Shown here in pieces: positions 24,063-37,804 of a stretch of DNA of 40,286 bases; the stretch's first letter is position 1, and every line of letters starts with the position of its first letter. Location: the NCBI GenBank assembly GCA_001314905.1, contig LJZT01000034.1:1-40286 (forward strand), written 5' to 3'. Below the pieces are notes generated by a model. That model worked only from the letters and a program-made list of their open reading frames with translations, ran no database searches and was not told the DNA's origin. This stretch comes from Phormidium sp. OSCR (GTDB lineage Bacteria; Cyanobacteriota; Cyanobacteriia; Cyanobacteriales; Geitlerinemataceae). A program made the position numbers and the translations under genes.

Positions 24063-27000
24063 GCCGCCGTTATAAACTGGCGAAATTCGCGAGATCAAGA
24101 GTCGTTGCACTAACATTCTGGAGCAAGAGTGAACCGTCCTCGAACTCAATCAGCGCACCCCCCGTCACATCAGACGCTACCGCTGGGCGAGAGCGAACCT
24201 CCGCCAGCAGTGCTTCCGGGAGGGCGATCGCATCAACCCCAACCTGGAAATCGATAATGGTGTCATGACCGTGCAACCCTTTGTAGACAAAGTGATCGGC
24301 ACCGTCTCCACCCGTCAAGGTGTCATCGCCCAAATCCCCCGAAAGCGTATCATTTCCGGCCCCGCCGAAGATAACATCATTATCACGACCGCCAAAGAGG
24401 ATGTCGTTACCCTCTCCACCATTGAGGATATCTTGCCCCCGGTTGCCGAAGATATAATCATTGCCAGCATTGCCATTCAAGTCATCATTGTCATTGCCGC
24501 CGACAATGGTATCGTTCCCGTCGTCACCTGAGACACGGTCATTCCCCAAACCGGCAAGGACGAGATCATCTCCCGCACCCCCTTCGAGAGAGTCGTCACC
24601 GTCACCTCCCACAATCAGGTCGTCCCCGAGTCCACCTCGAACCAGATCATTGCCCAAATCCCCGAACAGTTCGTCATGGCCATCTCCTCCGTCAATAATG
24701 TCGTCGTCTTGGCCACCGTGAATCAGGTCGGCATCTTCACCGCCGTCGATGACATCATTGCCCTTGTTACCAAACAGCGCATCGCTTCCGGCATTGCCCA
24801 GAATGCGATCGCCGTCTCGTCCACCAGCGATCACATCGTTGCCATCTCCCCCGGAAATGTCATCGCTGCCTTGATTGCCAAACATCAAGTCGTCCCCACC
24901 GTTACCTTCAATCAAGTCGTCGCCAGCAAAGCCGGTGATGGCTTCGTTGCGATCGCCGCCAATTAACGTATCATCCTCCTCAGTTCCATTGAGAATCGCC
25001 TCAATGACTAACCGAGATTGGAGGTTTTCGTTATAGTCGATGAGGTCATTGAGTTGGGCGGCAGAGATTTCACCCAGGGCCAGAGATTGTAACAGGGATG
25101 CCTGAAGTCCTTGGGCAATGGTTTGTTCAGCAGCAATATCGGCACGAATTTGACGCAAATTGCCGCCGGTCCCGGCTGTCCGTGCGATTTCGCTCATGCG
25201 AGCGTTGCGCTTAGCGATGACCTCGGCCACAATCTCTAAGGTCTCGGGGTTCAGGCTGCCTCCCGTCACGACCTGTTCCAACAAGGGTTGGATCTGTTCC
25301 GGGTTGCCCAGGTTGTTGTACCGTTGCCCCGCTTCGAGGTTGGCAACAAAGATCTCAATGACGCGATCTTCGGCCGCTTCAACTCCCAGTCCACGGGCCA
25401 CTTCGGCCAGTTGGGTCCAGGTGGCGTTGAGTTGAACCTGTTTAGCATAGACTTCGGCAGCGACGGGATTGCCAGCCTCGAGTTCCGCGATCACGTCAAA
25501 ACTGCTGAGATCCAACAGGGGTAAATCGAGGGCCGTTTGAACGACGCTCTTCGCCGTCTCGGTATCGGGAGTTGGGACCGAGGCACGCAACAGACTCGAC
25601 CAAGCGGTTTCAAGCAGATCCAGATAGCTACGATCGACCGCCTCGTAAGCCACCTGTTCCGTAATAGCGGCCCGAGCCGTTTCGCCCGAACCCGTGATTT
25701 TGGCAATCTCAGCGTTGAGATAGGCCAGTTCATCGAGAACCACATCGCCGTCTTCGAGGGTCTGTCCTAGGCTTGTCGCTGCGCCGTTTAAGAGGGATTC
25801 GAGGTCGTCGCGATCGCTCAAATCGAGAGTTTGACCGCTGACAACGCGATCGCTGATGCCATCGAGAATCTCTAAAACCCCGGCTTTGCGAGCGTCTGCT
25901 TCTCCCAGGGCGTTTCCGCCTAGGATTAACAGGTTCTGCAACTGGGCCTGCACCCGGAACACCGCTGCGGCGTCGCGATCGCCGGCCACAATTCCCTCCA
26001 GGGGACTATCGTCGTAGAGGTCAAAGCTCGCCGGCAACCCGAAGGTCGTTTGCACCTGGTTGGCAATGGTGTCGGTTTCAGGTTCTTCGAGCTTGATGGC
26101 CAGCAACGTCAGGGGTGAGGCAACCTCCCAGTCAGGAGCCGTCGAGAAGGCAAATTTCTGATCTTGGAAGGTATCTGTATCCACCCCATCCTGAATGATT
26201 ACCTGACCTTCACTGAGATCAATCTTGCCGTTGCCGTTGATGTCGTACTCTTCTAGGGGAATCGCCAGTTGATAACTGCCGTCAATTTGCGTCAGGGTAA
26301 AGGGTTCATCGGCATCTTGCTCGCCGTCGAAGTCCGCATCGAAGAACACCGTACCGCCGGCGATCGGCCCGTCAAAGACCGTGGCTACCGTAAATCCGTT
26401 TTCACCATACTCAAACGTCGCCAGGGTAAACGGCCCGAAGTCTTTGCGATAGAGATCCTCTTTCAACACTCCGACGACTTGAGCCCGAATGCCCACCGTA
26501 GCACTGGCGGTTAACGCCCCTGACAGGTTAAACAACTGCCAGGGCTGTGTGATATTGGCACCAATTTCGGAAATCGCGCGGATTTTGCCGTCGGAGGTTC
26601 CGGTACTTTCGCCGGTATCCCGGAAATCGAGCCCTAAAGACCCCAGCAAGCCACCCCGTGCGTATCCTTCGAGGGAAGCCACGCCGACGTTTAACCCCAC
26701 CCCAAGTTCAATGTTGGCCCCGAGAGCTGCGGTGATTTCGTCCCCGTCTTCGCCGGTTCCATCCGCATTGACGCGATCGCTGAGATAGAACCCATCCAGA
26801 ACCCGGAAACTTTGATCAAGTGCGAAATCCCGATTTGACCAGTCAACTAAACCTTTGCTATCGAAGCCGAAGGCCAAATCGGCCGCAACCTCGATATCTC
26901 CACCAAAGCCAAGTCGCACCGTTGGCGGTGAATAGACGATAAAGTTGGCCTGGAAACTTGCCCCCAATTCCAGCGGTGGAAGGTCGAAGGTAAAGAGATT

Positions 27001-30000
27001 GGCACCGGGTTTACCCAATAACAAATCGATCGCCACGGAGGGATCGGTCAAAATGGGAAAGTCGAAGGTTCCTTCTTTAATGGTTCCCAAGAGTTCCTTG
27101 GCTGAACCTGATGACGAGGTTTCGATTTGTCCGCCCACATCGGGAACTTGAACTTTGGGACGGGGAATTTTCTTCAGTTCTTCTGTAACACTATCAGCCA
27201 AACCACTAAAGCTGAAGTTTTTGCTGGCAAATAATGGCTCAAAAACATCGGTGAGTTCTTTGAGGGAAATGTCGCTGAGATTGAGCGATCGCCCACTGAG
27301 TCCGGCGCGATTGGCGGCGATCGCGTTTAAGCCAACCGCAAAGTCTTCTAAGGACAGTTTCGACCAATCCACAGATAAATTACCGGGATCGGTTCCCGCA
27401 AACCAGGCACTCATCCCCTGGGTAAAGTCCCGTAGGCTGATACCTGATGATCCCAACATTGACCCCGGTGTCAGACTGGAAATATCGACGGATACATCAA
27501 AGTTTTGAGCAAAGTCTTTCAGGGAAATTTTTGTCCAGTCGAAATCTAAACCCGATCGCAAACCCGACTTCGAGAACAGCTTTTTAATCCCACCGGAGAA
27601 GTCGCCAAAGGAGAGATCGGGCCAGGTGAACTCAGGATTGTCTCCTGAGGAAAATAGAGTCGTAAGCCCGTCAGAAAAATCATTAATGGAAAAACTCGGC
27701 AGACTAAAATCAAAGGTACTTGTTCGTGATTTTTCCCCTGTATTTCCTCCCCCTAAATCAACCTCATAGGAACCGAGTTCAATAAAATAATTGCCTTGGC
27801 TTCCTGACAACTCATCCACCAGTTGAGCAAAGCGATCGACCTGATCAATCGTGTTGATAAACGGTAAAACATTGACTTTATTTTGAGGCAATGCCTGAAT
27901 CAACTCAATTAGGGATTTTGTGCCATCACCATCGCGATCGAGGGGTTGCCCAAACAAGGAATCCAACCCAAAGGTTGAGAGAAATGTCAAGTCTTGTTTG
28001 AGAAACTTAATAAAGGGGCGAATTGGCTCGACAACCTCGTTCACGTTCTTAAAAATCGGACGAGCAAAGTCACTGGCAAAACTGCCCACATCGATTTTTA
28101 GATTATCAAACGAAATTGCCGGTAAAGACGGCTTCTCAAATTGGCCATCAGCATAGCGAAACGCATTCCAGTCGGCATTAAGATCGAGTAAGAAACTGGG
28201 AATTGCACTGCTACCATTAACACTGGTGACCAACTGTAACCCCAGATTGGCGTTGCCATCTAGGGTAGGAGAAAACAGGTCACTCAGTTGGAAGTCGCGG
28301 CGCAGTTCGGCCAGCGTTAGGCGATCGCCATCGTCCGGCGTCTCCTGGGTTTTAATGTCGCCTTCGCTGGCATCATACTGACCGTTGCGGTTCGTGTCAT
28401 AACGACCCACGATGGGCAACGCCGGAAAGTTACCCTGGGCATCGCTTTCTACGCTCGGTTCCCCCGAATCAAACTCCCCATTACCATTGGCATCAAGATA
28501 TTGAATCCTGGGAACATTATCGAGATCCTTGAGTTTTGCCTCAAACTCAATTCCCGCCTCAGTGGCATCATCGGGATTATTGGCCGCCTCAATTTGCAAA
28601 AAGCCGAGGTTTCCTTGTGCCTTAAACCCATCACTGAGCGACACATCCACACCAGCCGAGAGTCCCGTTTTTTCAGTATCCACAAAGAAGCCAAAATCGG
28701 CATCCCAACCAATCCCCAGTCCCAACTCATACTCAAAGCCGCTCGTCGTCGAACCGTCCACATTCAAACCCAAACCGGGAATGCCGAGATCCCGACTCAG
28801 ATCGGTCTCAATGTCATAACGGCTGCCGATTTTAATATCAAAGGTCGTCGCGTCCAGGCCCGCCGAGAGATCGACGCTGACATCAGTATCAATGCCAATC
28901 TTGTTAAACGAACGCTCAATGGCATTTTGAATGGTGTTGGCAATTTGAGAGGTGGTTGCCGTTCCACCCGATTCAAGTTCAGCGACGACAAACTCTCGGA
29001 AGGTTTCGATGAAGTCCGGGGTATAGTCGCCGAGAGTCCCAATCAGGGGCAGTTCGGTGTTGTCGAGTTGCTCGCCAATCAGACTATTAATTTGCCGCAG
29101 AAGCAAATCGAAGCCATCACTGAAGGTCGAGCCTTCGATTTGCGTATCGGAGATGACGACGGGAAGCGAGGGAACCGCATAATCAGGATTGTTGACGAGG
29201 GTATCGAAACTGGCACCGCCTCCCGTCACCGTGAAGCCGACATTGAAGGTTTCGTTCTCGGGTTCGACTTCGTCATCGTTTTTGGCGTAGACATCGACAG
29301 TGACGGGTTCGTCCCAGTTGGCCAGAGGAATGGTGACGTCGGAAATGGCTTCGAGGTCGTCTCCTGTGTCGAAGGAAATGGTGACATCAGCATCAGGTTG
29401 TTTAACTAAGACGATCTCGAACTGGTCCGGTTCGTTTGTTCCCTCCACCACAAAAGTCCGAGCGCCGGTTTTATTGATGAGGATAAATTCATCACTCAGA
29501 CTCGGTTCGCGCACACTGGCCCCGTCAAGAATGACCGTGCGGCCTTCGCTGGCCGCAGGATCGAGGGCGTAGCCAACGCCACCGGGATCGCTGAGGGTAA
29601 TCTCGATGGATTCGCCGTTATCTTCGATTTGGTCGTCAAAGGCTTCAATCTTCACCGTCGCCGAACTTTCACCGGTTCCAATGGAGACAGACTTAGCAAT
29701 GGGGACGTAGTCGTCATCGTTGCCTTCAACTGCCGTTCCGCCAATGGTGAAGGGAATCGTTAGCGGCGTCGGCGCCGGGTTACTCAGTTCAATCGTGAAG
29801 ACGGTTTGCTCGTTGCCGTTTTCTTCGGTAATAGAATCGACGGCAGACACGGACACCGTTGGCTCGTTATCCTCGATGGTAATAGTTTCGCTCGCCGGGG
29901 TATCGAGGTCGTAGAGTAGGCCATCCTCTAAGGACACCTCGATGGTTTCATCAGGATCAACCGTTGTATCGTCGATGGGAACGAGATTGACTTGTAGGGA

Positions 30001-30143
30001 CGTTGTATTGGCAGGGATGGTGACCTGGTTGCCGGCGATCGCCGTCCCATCAGTCAGTTCTAGGGTGTAGTCATCCCCCCGCGTTGCCGTTCCACTCAGG
30101 CTGAAGTCCACCACAATCTGACCGGCCAGGGTTCGGTCTAAGG

Positions 30144-31685
<1,542 letters not shown>

Positions 31686-32214
31686 ATTTAAGTAAAAACG
31701 ACTGCATAGCTAAACAACTGTGAAGCTTCCAAAAGCTTGCAAGATTCAATGTTTTTACGGAGACCAAACTCCTCCCAACCTACTTAGAAATACTTAAATC
31801 TGGGGTTAATGAGATTAAATTTTAAGTAAATCTTCATAAACTTCTACCCAGAAGCAATTTCTGTTAAAGATTCAGGCCAATGAGTTGACGAAGCCAGAAC
31901 CCATAGGTTAATAAAAAAACAATTAATAACTATAATTTATTTTAGTAATCAAAAAGCTGAATGAGAACAAGTCTGAAACCGGGCCAGGAGCAACAAAACT
32001 CTGAAGATGCTGGGTTCGTAGTCCGAGGTATTTTTTATCCCCCCGTGGGGCATCTCATGGAAGCAGTCACACTGAGAAGATAGGTAAACCGAGGTGTTTG
32101 ACCTAAGTCAAGGAAATTGTCAAGGTTTTATGACCACACTGGGGCTGCGGACAATAGGATGTCCGACCAATAGATCCATTTGTCCCTAACGATGTCCTGA
32201 AAAGACTTTAAATC
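31686..32214. other. Gene-free region between the adhesin and the NorB-like gene
   Basis: The two genes diverge here. The half next to the adhesin is AT-rich, with TATAAT at 31931-31936 on the plus strand but no matching -35. The half next to the NorB-like gene carries the TTGA-N6-TCAA site (32098-32111). I see no open frame worth calling. Confidence 0.7.
32098..32111 (+). promoter_or_regulatory. FNR/DNR-type palindrome upstream of the NorB-like gene
   Basis: TTGACCTAAGTCAA is a perfect TTGA-N6-TCAA palindrome 103 bases upstream of the start codon. CRP/FNR-family regulators, in particular the NO-responsive DNR/NnrR branch, bind this form; it differs from the cyanobacterial NtcA site (GTA-N8-TAC). 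The TSS would be expected about 40 bases after its centre. Confidence 0.6.
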
Positions 32215-33093
32215 ATGACCAATCCGACCCTCGACCTGAAGGTGGCGCGATCGCCGATTACGCGATTCAGCCTACCGGCCTGGTTAGTGCTGGTGTGTGT
32301 TGTGACCTTCACCGTACTCATTGGGGCCGGGGCCGCCATCTACAAAAATGCGCCCCCCATTCCCGCCACGATGGTCTCGCCTCAACAGGAGACCGTTCTC
32401 AGCCAAGAAAACATCCAACTGGGGCAAGAAACCTATCTGGCCCGAGGAGGACAGCATATCGGCAGTATTTGGGGTCATGGCAGTTATCTGGCCCCCGATT
32501 GGACCGCCGATGTCCTTCACCGTTGGGGATTAGCCACCGCTGGCGTTCTCTATCGCATTCCCCTAAAGTTCTTCTTGGCCACTTGTTTCTGGAACCTCGT
32601 CGGAGCGGGAGTTTTTGGCTTCCTCATCAATCCCCCCATCGTTCTCTACTATTCCCAAGGGATTAACACCACTCCCATTCATGCGCACTCAGCCTTATTT
32701 GGAGTCTATGGCTCTTTAGCCTTAGCTTTGATGCTATTTGCCCTCCGGGAGATTACCCCCGATCGCGCCTGGAATGAAACCTGGTTTAATCGCTCCTTTT
32801 GGAGTATCAACATCGGCTTAGGGATGATGATGGTGTTCGGTTTGATTCCCAGTGGCTTCTACCAACTGGTGCAATCGGTCAATCATGGCACGTGGTACGC
32901 TCGCAGTGCTGAGGTGATTAGTTCGGCCTGGATGCACTGGACGGTCTGGCTACGGATTCCTGGGGATGTTGTCTTTAGTTTAGGGGCTTTGTTGATGGTG
33001 ATTTGCGTCTTACGGGCGATCGTTGCCATTTTCCAAGAACCGACACAACTGCAACCGGCAGAAGCGTTAACTCCCGAACTTTCTCAGGGGTAA
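32215..33093 (+). CDS. NorB-like protein with the central membrane region missing
   Basis: A 292-residue protein composed of the two ends of a quinol-type nitric oxide reductase. The N-terminus has one membrane helix (about 20-42), then NAPPIPATM and GSIWGHGSYLAPDWTADVLHRWG (residues 83-105), the well-known periplasmic qNOR block. At residues 113-114 it passes directly into RIPLKFFLATCFWNLVGAGVFGFLINPP and NTTPIHAHSALFGVYG (His156, His158), the late helices that in full enzymes hold heme ligands, and ends with WYARSAEV and RIPGDVVFSLG. Full-length qNOR is about 750 residues; about 430 residues with the FeB histidines, the Glu and the first heme ligand are absent. It therefore should not reduce NO as the family does. 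The frame is intact. GlbN follows after 67 bases. Confidence 0.8.
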   Translation: MTNPTLDLKVARSPITRFSLPAWLVLVCVVTFTVLIGAGAAIYKNAPPIPATMVSPQQETVLSQENIQLGQETYLARGGQHIGSIWGHGSYLAPDWTADVLHRWGLATAGVLYRIPLKFFLATCFWNLVGAGVFGFLINPPIVLYYSQGINTTPIHAHSALFGVYGSLALALMLFALREITPDRAWNETWFNRSFWSINIGLGMMMVFGLIPSGFYQLVQSVNHGTWYARSAEVISSAWMHWTVWLRIPGDVVFSLGALLMVICVLRAIVAIFQEPTQLQPAEALTPELSQG

Positions 33094-33160: not shown

Positions 33161-33532
33161 ATGACGACTTTATTCGAGAAACTTGGCGGAGAACCTGCCA
33201 TTGATGCTGCGGTGGACAAGTTCTACAACCGGGTGTTGAACGACGATCGCATCAAACACTTTTTTGCCGACACCAACATGACTCGCCAGCGGCAACATCA
33301 GAAAGCCTTTCTCACCTATGCCTTAGGTGGCGGTGGTTACACGGGCCGCTCGATGCGGCAGGCTCACAAAGCCTTAGTCGAAGAACAAGGCTTACGGGGT
33401 GAACATTTCGATGCGGTAGCTGAGGACTTGCTCATCACTCTAAAAGAGATGGGGGTCGCTGATGATTTACTCTCAGAAGTGGCTGCTGTTGTGGGTGATG
33501 TTCAGCATAAGAAAGATGTCTTAAATCAATAA
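33161..33532 (+). CDS. glbN: Group I truncated hemoglobin (cyanoglobin GlbN)
   Basis: A 123-residue 2-on-2 globin that protects against reactive nitrogen and oxygen species. Its residues match the Synechocystis protein closely: Tyr22 (B10), Gln43 (E7), His46 (E10, distal heme ligand), Gln47 (E11), His69 (F8, proximal ligand) and His116 in QHKKDVLNQ. The last equals the histidine that forms a covalent bond to the heme vinyl in cyanobacterial GlbN, so this globin can probably make that link. The two-glycine corner GGGGYTGR is present. Translation is supported by two AGGAGA sites. It follows the NorB-like gene on the same strand and may share its transcript and the DNR-like control. An intrinsic terminator follows. 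Confidence 0.96.
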   Translation: MTTLFEKLGGEPAIDAAVDKFYNRVLNDDRIKHFFADTNMTRQRQHQKAFLTYALGGGGYTGRSMRQAHKALVEEQGLRGEHFDAVAEDLLITLKEMGVADDLLSEVAAVVGDVQHKKDVLNQ

Positions 33533-33562: not shown

Positions 33563-33592
33563 AAACCCGATCGCCGGCCGGCGATCGGGTTT
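33563..33592 (+). terminator. Terminator after glbN
   Basis: A perfect 15-bp inverted repeat (33563-33577 with 33578-33592) around GATCGCCGGCCGGCGATC, with AAA before it and TTT after it. It could act on both strands, ending glbN from the left and the small gene from the right. Confidence 0.8.
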
Positions 33593-37709: not shown

Positions 37710-37717
37710 CATTAAAG

Positions 37718-37804
37718 CGGAGAGGGAGGGATTCGAACCCTCGATGGCTGTGACACCATAACAGATTTCGAGTCTGCCGCATTCAACCGCTCTGCCACCT
37801 CTCC
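37718..37804 (-). tRNA. tRNA-Ser (anticodon CGA)
   Basis: An 87-base class II tRNA on the minus strand. Acceptor arms GGAGAGG and CCTCTCC pair perfectly, with discriminator G. The D-arm is GGTGGCAGAGCGGTTGAATGC-like, the anticodon loop reads CTCGAAA (anticodon CGA, codon UCG), there is a long variable arm as in tRNA-Ser, and the T-loop is GGTTCGAATCC. The CCA end is not encoded. Confidence 0.95.

Follow-up and report, generated by a model that had tools for sequence, protein, structure and literature searches.

A probable young norB deletion remnant ahead of glbN in Phormidium sp. OSCR: gene decay is more likely than a new protein

The open reading frame that stands in front of the truncated-globin gene glbN in Phormidium sp. 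OSCR is best explained as a young deletion remnant of norB, lying in an HcpR-type norB-glbN operon that is being reduced to glbN; we put the probability of this reading at roughly 0.84. The stretch of DNA that was analysed (the window) is 40,286 nucleotides long and is the whole of contig C52 (LJZT01000034.1) in a draft assembly of 187 contigs (GCA_001314905.1; genome label G000). In the course of events proposed here, the ancestral operon would have comprised an HcpR-type box, norB and glbN, and codons 113-588 would have been lost when two TCTA(TC) copies lying 1428 bp apart took part in slippage or a short-homology event, the frame being kept by chance (a 1 in 3 outcome). The product, if made at all, would be an inactive five-helix membrane protein, while, with the box and the globin gene both retained, glbN would be what is left of an NO-defence operon (hcp, with the same box, lying elsewhere), and the deletion would be one of several independent breakdowns of norB within the genus. 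The remnant itself would be without function, and gene decay rather than the appearance of a new protein is most likely what is seen.

The original prediction described the two ends of a quinol-type NorB (qNOR) joined without the catalytic middle in a clean frame, and this description is borne out by the reading frame itself (Table 1), by Pfam, by a search of PDB sequences and by comparison with an intact relative. In the encoded protein (mini-NorB), residues 50-107 match positions 1-58 of the 181 in NorB_cytochrome_c-like (PF22085, 3.4e-21) and residues 112-253 match positions 304-436 of the 436 in COX1 (PF00115, 1.4e-17), while against qNORs in the PDB residues 24-107 align with 11-94 and residues 114-269 with 587-742. 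Both ends are thus homologous to quinol-type NorB by Pfam and by the PDB qNORs, chance likeness being excluded by E-values down to 1.9e-60 (that of the best PDB qNOR). NCBIfam returned no match above its cut-off, and since it returned none for intact NorB either, its silence is no test of membership. Set against the intact 768-residue NorB of Phormidium willei BDU 130791 (G004), mini-NorB residues 1-112 and 113-292 correspond to residues 1-112 and 589-768, so that residues 113-588 have gone in frame; the in-frame absence had therefore been recognised correctly, whereas its size, given as about 430 residues, is in fact 476 (1428 bp). A search of the entire assembly with a 767-residue query, at E up to 10, found no second piece of norB, both of its two matches falling in the mini-norB reading frame.

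Table 1 Features of the norB-glbN region of the window.
Feature	Position	Strand	Remarks
HcpR-type operator (candidate)	32098-32111		TTGACCTAAGTCAA, perfect match to HcpR consensus TTGACnnnnGTCAA
Hexamer CACACT at the -10 place (putative)	32135-32140	+	23 bases after the box; box-anchored comparison, 25 sites
norB-derived ORF	32215-33093	+	292 aa, ATG start, no internal stop
norB residues 1-112	32215-32550	+	TM I and first third of the periplasmic cytochrome c-like domain
Deletion junction	32549-32554	+	4 bp (TCTA) or 6 bp (TCTATC) of microhomology; codons 113-588 (1428 bp) lost; comparison with relatives
norB residues 589-768 and stop	32551-33093	+	TM XI-XIV; H156, H158, R247, D251
glbN, truncated globin (cyanoglobin)	33161-33532	+	123 aa, intact; Bac_globin (Pfam)
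Terminator-like palindrome (30 bp)	33563-33592		with GATCGCCGGCCGGCGATC, downstream of glbN; also in compared relatives; self-complementary matches

The extent of the microhomology at the join depends on which relative is taken to represent the ancestor, being TCTA if this is G004 or the metagenome-assembled genome Phormidium sp. SL48-SHIP (G006), and TCTATC if a third relative (G005) supplies the left side. When 200,000 pairs of breakpoints at least 300 bp apart were drawn at random within norB, 1.8 % of them shared 4 bp or more and 0.2 % shared 6 bp or more, and the join is most naturally read as the product of a short-homology deletion. A recent in-frame deletion had been offered as one of two alternatives in the original prediction, and it is this alternative that gains support, from the microhomology, from the presence of an intact gene in two sister species, from the failure to find any homologue with the same join, and from four other lesions of norB in the genus.

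The genus comparison (the genus of the window and its sister genomes is presumably the one now called Sodalinema) covers the seven species returned by the searches, that of the window included. A full-length norB (768 aa) is present in two of them, G004 and G006, and the other five carry five different lesions. Besides the window's own in-frame deletion of residues 113-588, these are another in-frame deletion, of residues 349-644, by which the HAH helix is removed (G005); a fusion of the promoter to the interior of norB with loss of the start (Geitlerinema sp. P-1104, G003); a reduction to an 80-residue C-terminal scrap (G002); and a replacement of the N-terminal part by IS-like reading frames, of which one bears an InsA zinc ribbon that falls just short of the Pfam cut-off and the other has no Pfam match (G001). 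The lesions of G001 and G005 sit in single-contig genomes. Throughout, glbN is present and open (7/7), and the HcpR-type box is kept in six of the seven species, G001 being the one in which it was not found.

Elsewhere in the window, a block of about 8 kb (24070-31685) lies between sensor/regulator genes and norB, and is absent from that place in G002, G003, G004 and G005. It carries on the minus strand a DUF4347 reading frame (30144-31685) that overlaps, in another frame, one of 2089 residues (24070-30339) that has RTX repeats and matches Calx-beta below threshold; the two are probably one giant protein, frameshifted near a Gly-rich stretch. An ordinary tRNA-Ser (cga) is found at 37717-37804, also on the minus strand.

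Beyond the genus, two overlapping samples of genomes were searched, 388 drawn from the order and 388 from the class. The query was matched in 61 of the order genomes (its own included) and 39 of the class genomes, and only the window's own genome matched residues 1-292 in one piece; of the remaining genomes with a match, 60 from the order and 38 from the class, none had the same join. The proteins of about 290 residues with the same join that were to be sought in other cyanobacteria therefore did not turn up in either sample, nor did a mini-NorB family shared with any other species. The 61 order genomes read as 45 with full-length and 16 with broken or partial norB; the split is taken straight from the match rows, in which a gene may look partial because its contig ends (G266 is one possible instance), and it includes two genomes, G079 and G114, whose matches reach no better than E about 1e-4. 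The norB of Calothrix sp. PCC 7716, a complete record (L057 4913-6337; 10 kb around norB examined), stops after residue 304 and stands between the box and glbN, a comparable and independent loss well outside the genus. A C-terminal scrap (query residues 240-290) also lies 100 bp before glbN in G097 (L103 3275-3899), where no box was found upstream of it within the fetched stretch. Among the open-access titles and abstract openings listed by literature searches, none dealt with norB loss or truncation in cyanobacteria.

The palindrome that had been noticed before the reading frame is indeed present, and its 14-mer TTGACCTAAGTCAA fits the consensus TTGACnnnnGTCAA described before Synechocystis norB in the account of Rodionov (2005; PMC1274295). 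The same 14-mer occurs at only one other site in the genome, between the hybrid-cluster protein gene hcp and a divergent Crp/FNR gene (these occupy L101 3004-5523, on contig C83). Both sequence marks of an HcpR regulon are present, the consensus upstream of norB and, beside hcp, an HcpR-like Crp/FNR gene (a putative HcpR orthologue), and HcpR would be the expected ligand of the box. The HcpR pattern as such has nine sites in the genome against six for a control pattern, so that most of its genomic sites are probably due to chance. Among the 23 cyanobacterial norB loci (out of 24) that hold the N-terminal start, 15, including G004 and G006, have the box no more than 300 bp upstream of that start, while it is absent there in 8 (for one locus, L055, just 176 bp upstream are spanned); glbN lies in the examined flank of 10 of the 24.

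The hexamer that follows the box by 23 bases reads TATACT in G004, G006 and G003, and TATACT, TACACT or TAGACT across the five box-keeping relatives in the genus, as against CACACT in the window. At exactly this distance at least four matches to TATAAT are found in 14 of 25 sites (a raw count), and three in the window. A spacing of 23 bases between box and hexamer is that of FNR-type class II activation, and the hexamer would be a promoter element; given how worn it is in the window, the promoter there may be weakened.

That the reading frame lies upstream of glbN and behind a palindrome, as the original prediction had it, reflects the ancestral norB-glbN arrangement, which is seen with an intact norB in G004 and G006. 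The glbN start follows the mini-norB stop by 67 bp, and the remnant would presumably be co-transcribed with glbN, whose product would act in NO defence. The palindrome downstream of glbN may serve as a terminator, although a terminator scan did not report it. Two published points tell against so simple a picture: according to a review (PMC3820574), the GlbN of Synechococcus protects against NO, yet neither NO nor nitrate nor nitrite apparently induces it, and a cyanobacterial globin can make NO from nitrite in the absence of oxygen, as noted in PMC10830646. In Limnospira indica PCC 8005, according to the account in PMC8400943, norB and glbN are jointly induced by gamma radiation, and an examination of the regulatory sequences upstream of the pair is called for there.

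From 38 genomes with a glbN match, 16 loci with a lone glbN were picked among the better matches away from norB (three of these genomes, G031, G089 and G074, carry norB elsewhere). The box precedes glbN in four of the 16 (G008, G049, G071 and G040, of which G049 and G071 belong to one genus), and no norB match was found in those four genomes, which may represent the end state of norB loss. In the other 12 there is no box in about 800 bp upstream, so that glbN genes do not in general carry it; for this reason, and because the hexamer in the window is worn, it is not secured that the box now serves glbN.

What the deletion has removed can be judged from published descriptions of the Achromobacter enzyme (AxqNOR), which has 14 transmembrane helices, His486, His537 and His538 as FeB ligands with Glu490 nearby, His629 as heme-b3 ligand, heme-b ligands on helices IV and XII (the latter His631), Glu407 as calcium ligand, and His305, Glu309, Arg720 and Asp724 on the quinol side. 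His156 and His158, which had been singled out as possible heme ligands, are present, and by gapless alignment are the equivalents of His629 (heme b3) and His631 (heme b), just as R247 and D251 align with Arg720 and Asp724. A further alignment places the three FeB ligands and Glu490 inside the deleted part, together with Glu407, His305 and Glu309; helix IV with the other heme-b ligand has gone while the TM XII pair H156/H158 is kept, and half of the quinol site is lost. A hydropathy scan finds five helices (I and XI-XIV) in mini-NorB, helices II-X (9 of 14) being lost, where the same scan sees 13 of the 14 in intact G004 NorB. Mini-NorB thus lacks the FeB ligands and Glu490, the full heme ligand set and the 14 helices that would make it a qNOR. 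In the intact enzyme helix XI begins on the cytoplasmic side, but as nine is an odd number it would in mini-NorB directly follow a periplasmic segment; either TM XI-XIV would have to insert upside down, against their loop charges, or helix I would, and this broken parity would speak against a native heme pocket.

AlphaFold2 models built with 18 cyanobacterial sequences were about as poor for intact NorB (mean pLDDT 54.7, pTM 0.56) as for mini-NorB (53.6 and 0.47), and the HAH region was poor in both. The sole local contrast lies in the cytochrome c-like part, where residues 51-70 and 101-110 reach 79-81 and 79 in the intact protein as against 49-53 and 39 in mini-NorB.

Selection was examined with a codon model over the 292 retained codons, on a tree topology assumed from pairwise divergence. 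With the window branch left free, dN/dS is 0.070 there against 0.076 elsewhere, and this lack of relaxation, like the clean frame, counts against decay; a value of 1 along the whole window branch is rejected (2dlnL 23.9), and the upper 95 % bound is about 0.16. Since values above about 0.16 are rejected, any neutral period can have taken up no more than about 10 % of the branch, and dN/dS is consistent either with a recent deletion or with a constrained remnant. For glbN, dN/dS on the window branch ran to the upper limit of the fit and carries no information. The window copy has six replacements that no other copy in the genus shows, and three of these fall within its final 14 residues. Relaxed selection in G005, first read from pairwise values, fails when all its 470 retained codons are considered (dN/dS 0.076, as against 0.209, 2dlnL 4.6, on the 292 shared columns).

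The alternative that survives best is that the ends of NorB are maintained as a small membrane protein, whether as a heme-based NO sensor, a quinone-linked partner of GlbN or an inactive regulator. The open frame, the preserved start region, the low dN/dS on the branch, the retention of H156 and H158 and the position behind an HcpR-type box are all as it would have them; we nevertheless consider it very improbable, as neither sample yielded a homologue with the same join, the in-frame allele of G005 lacks the HAH helix and so there is no shared mini-form, one of the two heme-b ligands and none of the FeB ligands are left, helix parity would force the inverted insertion of TM XI-XIV, and the cytochrome c-like domain is cut at position 58 of 181. 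With ligands lost, parity broken and G005 without the helix in question, the stable new protein envisaged at the outset finds no positive support. In its most specific form, a selected, five-helix GlbN partner that binds heme through the HAH helix under HcpR-type control and senses or handles NO, it can scarcely be expected to hold; were it true, the low dN/dS would reflect real constraint, and a stable mini-NorB would, as far as the searches reach, be unique to this species.

It is also conceivable, at long odds, that the protein is useless and the frame is kept open because translation through it, or the integrity of the transcript, supports glbN. Both internal deletions in the genus (G000 and G005) are in frame, which chance alone would give 1 time in 9, and the glbN start lies 67 bp beyond the remnant's stop, but glbN persists in G003 without a norB start and in G002 and Calothrix sp. 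PCC 7716 without most of the gene, and an open frame by itself would not hold dN/dS low. That the assembler simply dropped the middle of norB, as a draft in 187 contigs might suggest, is least probable of all, given that no piece of that middle was found in the assembly, that norB is broken in other ways in single-contig G001 and G005 and in the complete Calothrix record, and that a k-mer assembler is not led astray by a homology of 4-6 bp.

Taken as decay of norB, these loci amount to a natural experiment, in which norB has been broken in five ways within one genus while glbN has been kept in 7/7 species and the HcpR-type box in 6/7; this suggests that GlbN is the part of the operon worth keeping in these cyanobacteria. 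The repeated loss of norB with retention of glbN, and usually of its box, is a wider pattern worth remembering, and for norB and glbN together the box offers a candidate site of regulation of the sort that the Limnospira study asked for. A caution also follows: a clean in-frame reading frame should not be taken for a new protein without a check of sister species.

Among known systems, the closest are the intact cyanobacterial qNOR/NorB genes of G004 and G006, to which mini-NorB residues 1-112 and 113-292 are 93-95 % identical; compared with them, as with the solved qNORs of Achromobacter (6qq6) and Geobacillus (3ayf), mini-NorB is without residues 113-588 of the intact protein. With the HcpR regulon as described in PMC1274295 the window's genome has in common that TTGACnnnnGTCAA stands before norB and that the 14-mer recurs between hcp and a divergent Crp/FNR gene, and it differs in that the box, here a predicted site, precedes a norB remnant and glbN. 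Limnospira indica PCC 8005, known here through its published description (PMC8400943), likewise has norB and glbN side by side, whereas in the window norB is broken and an HcpR-type box stands upstream.
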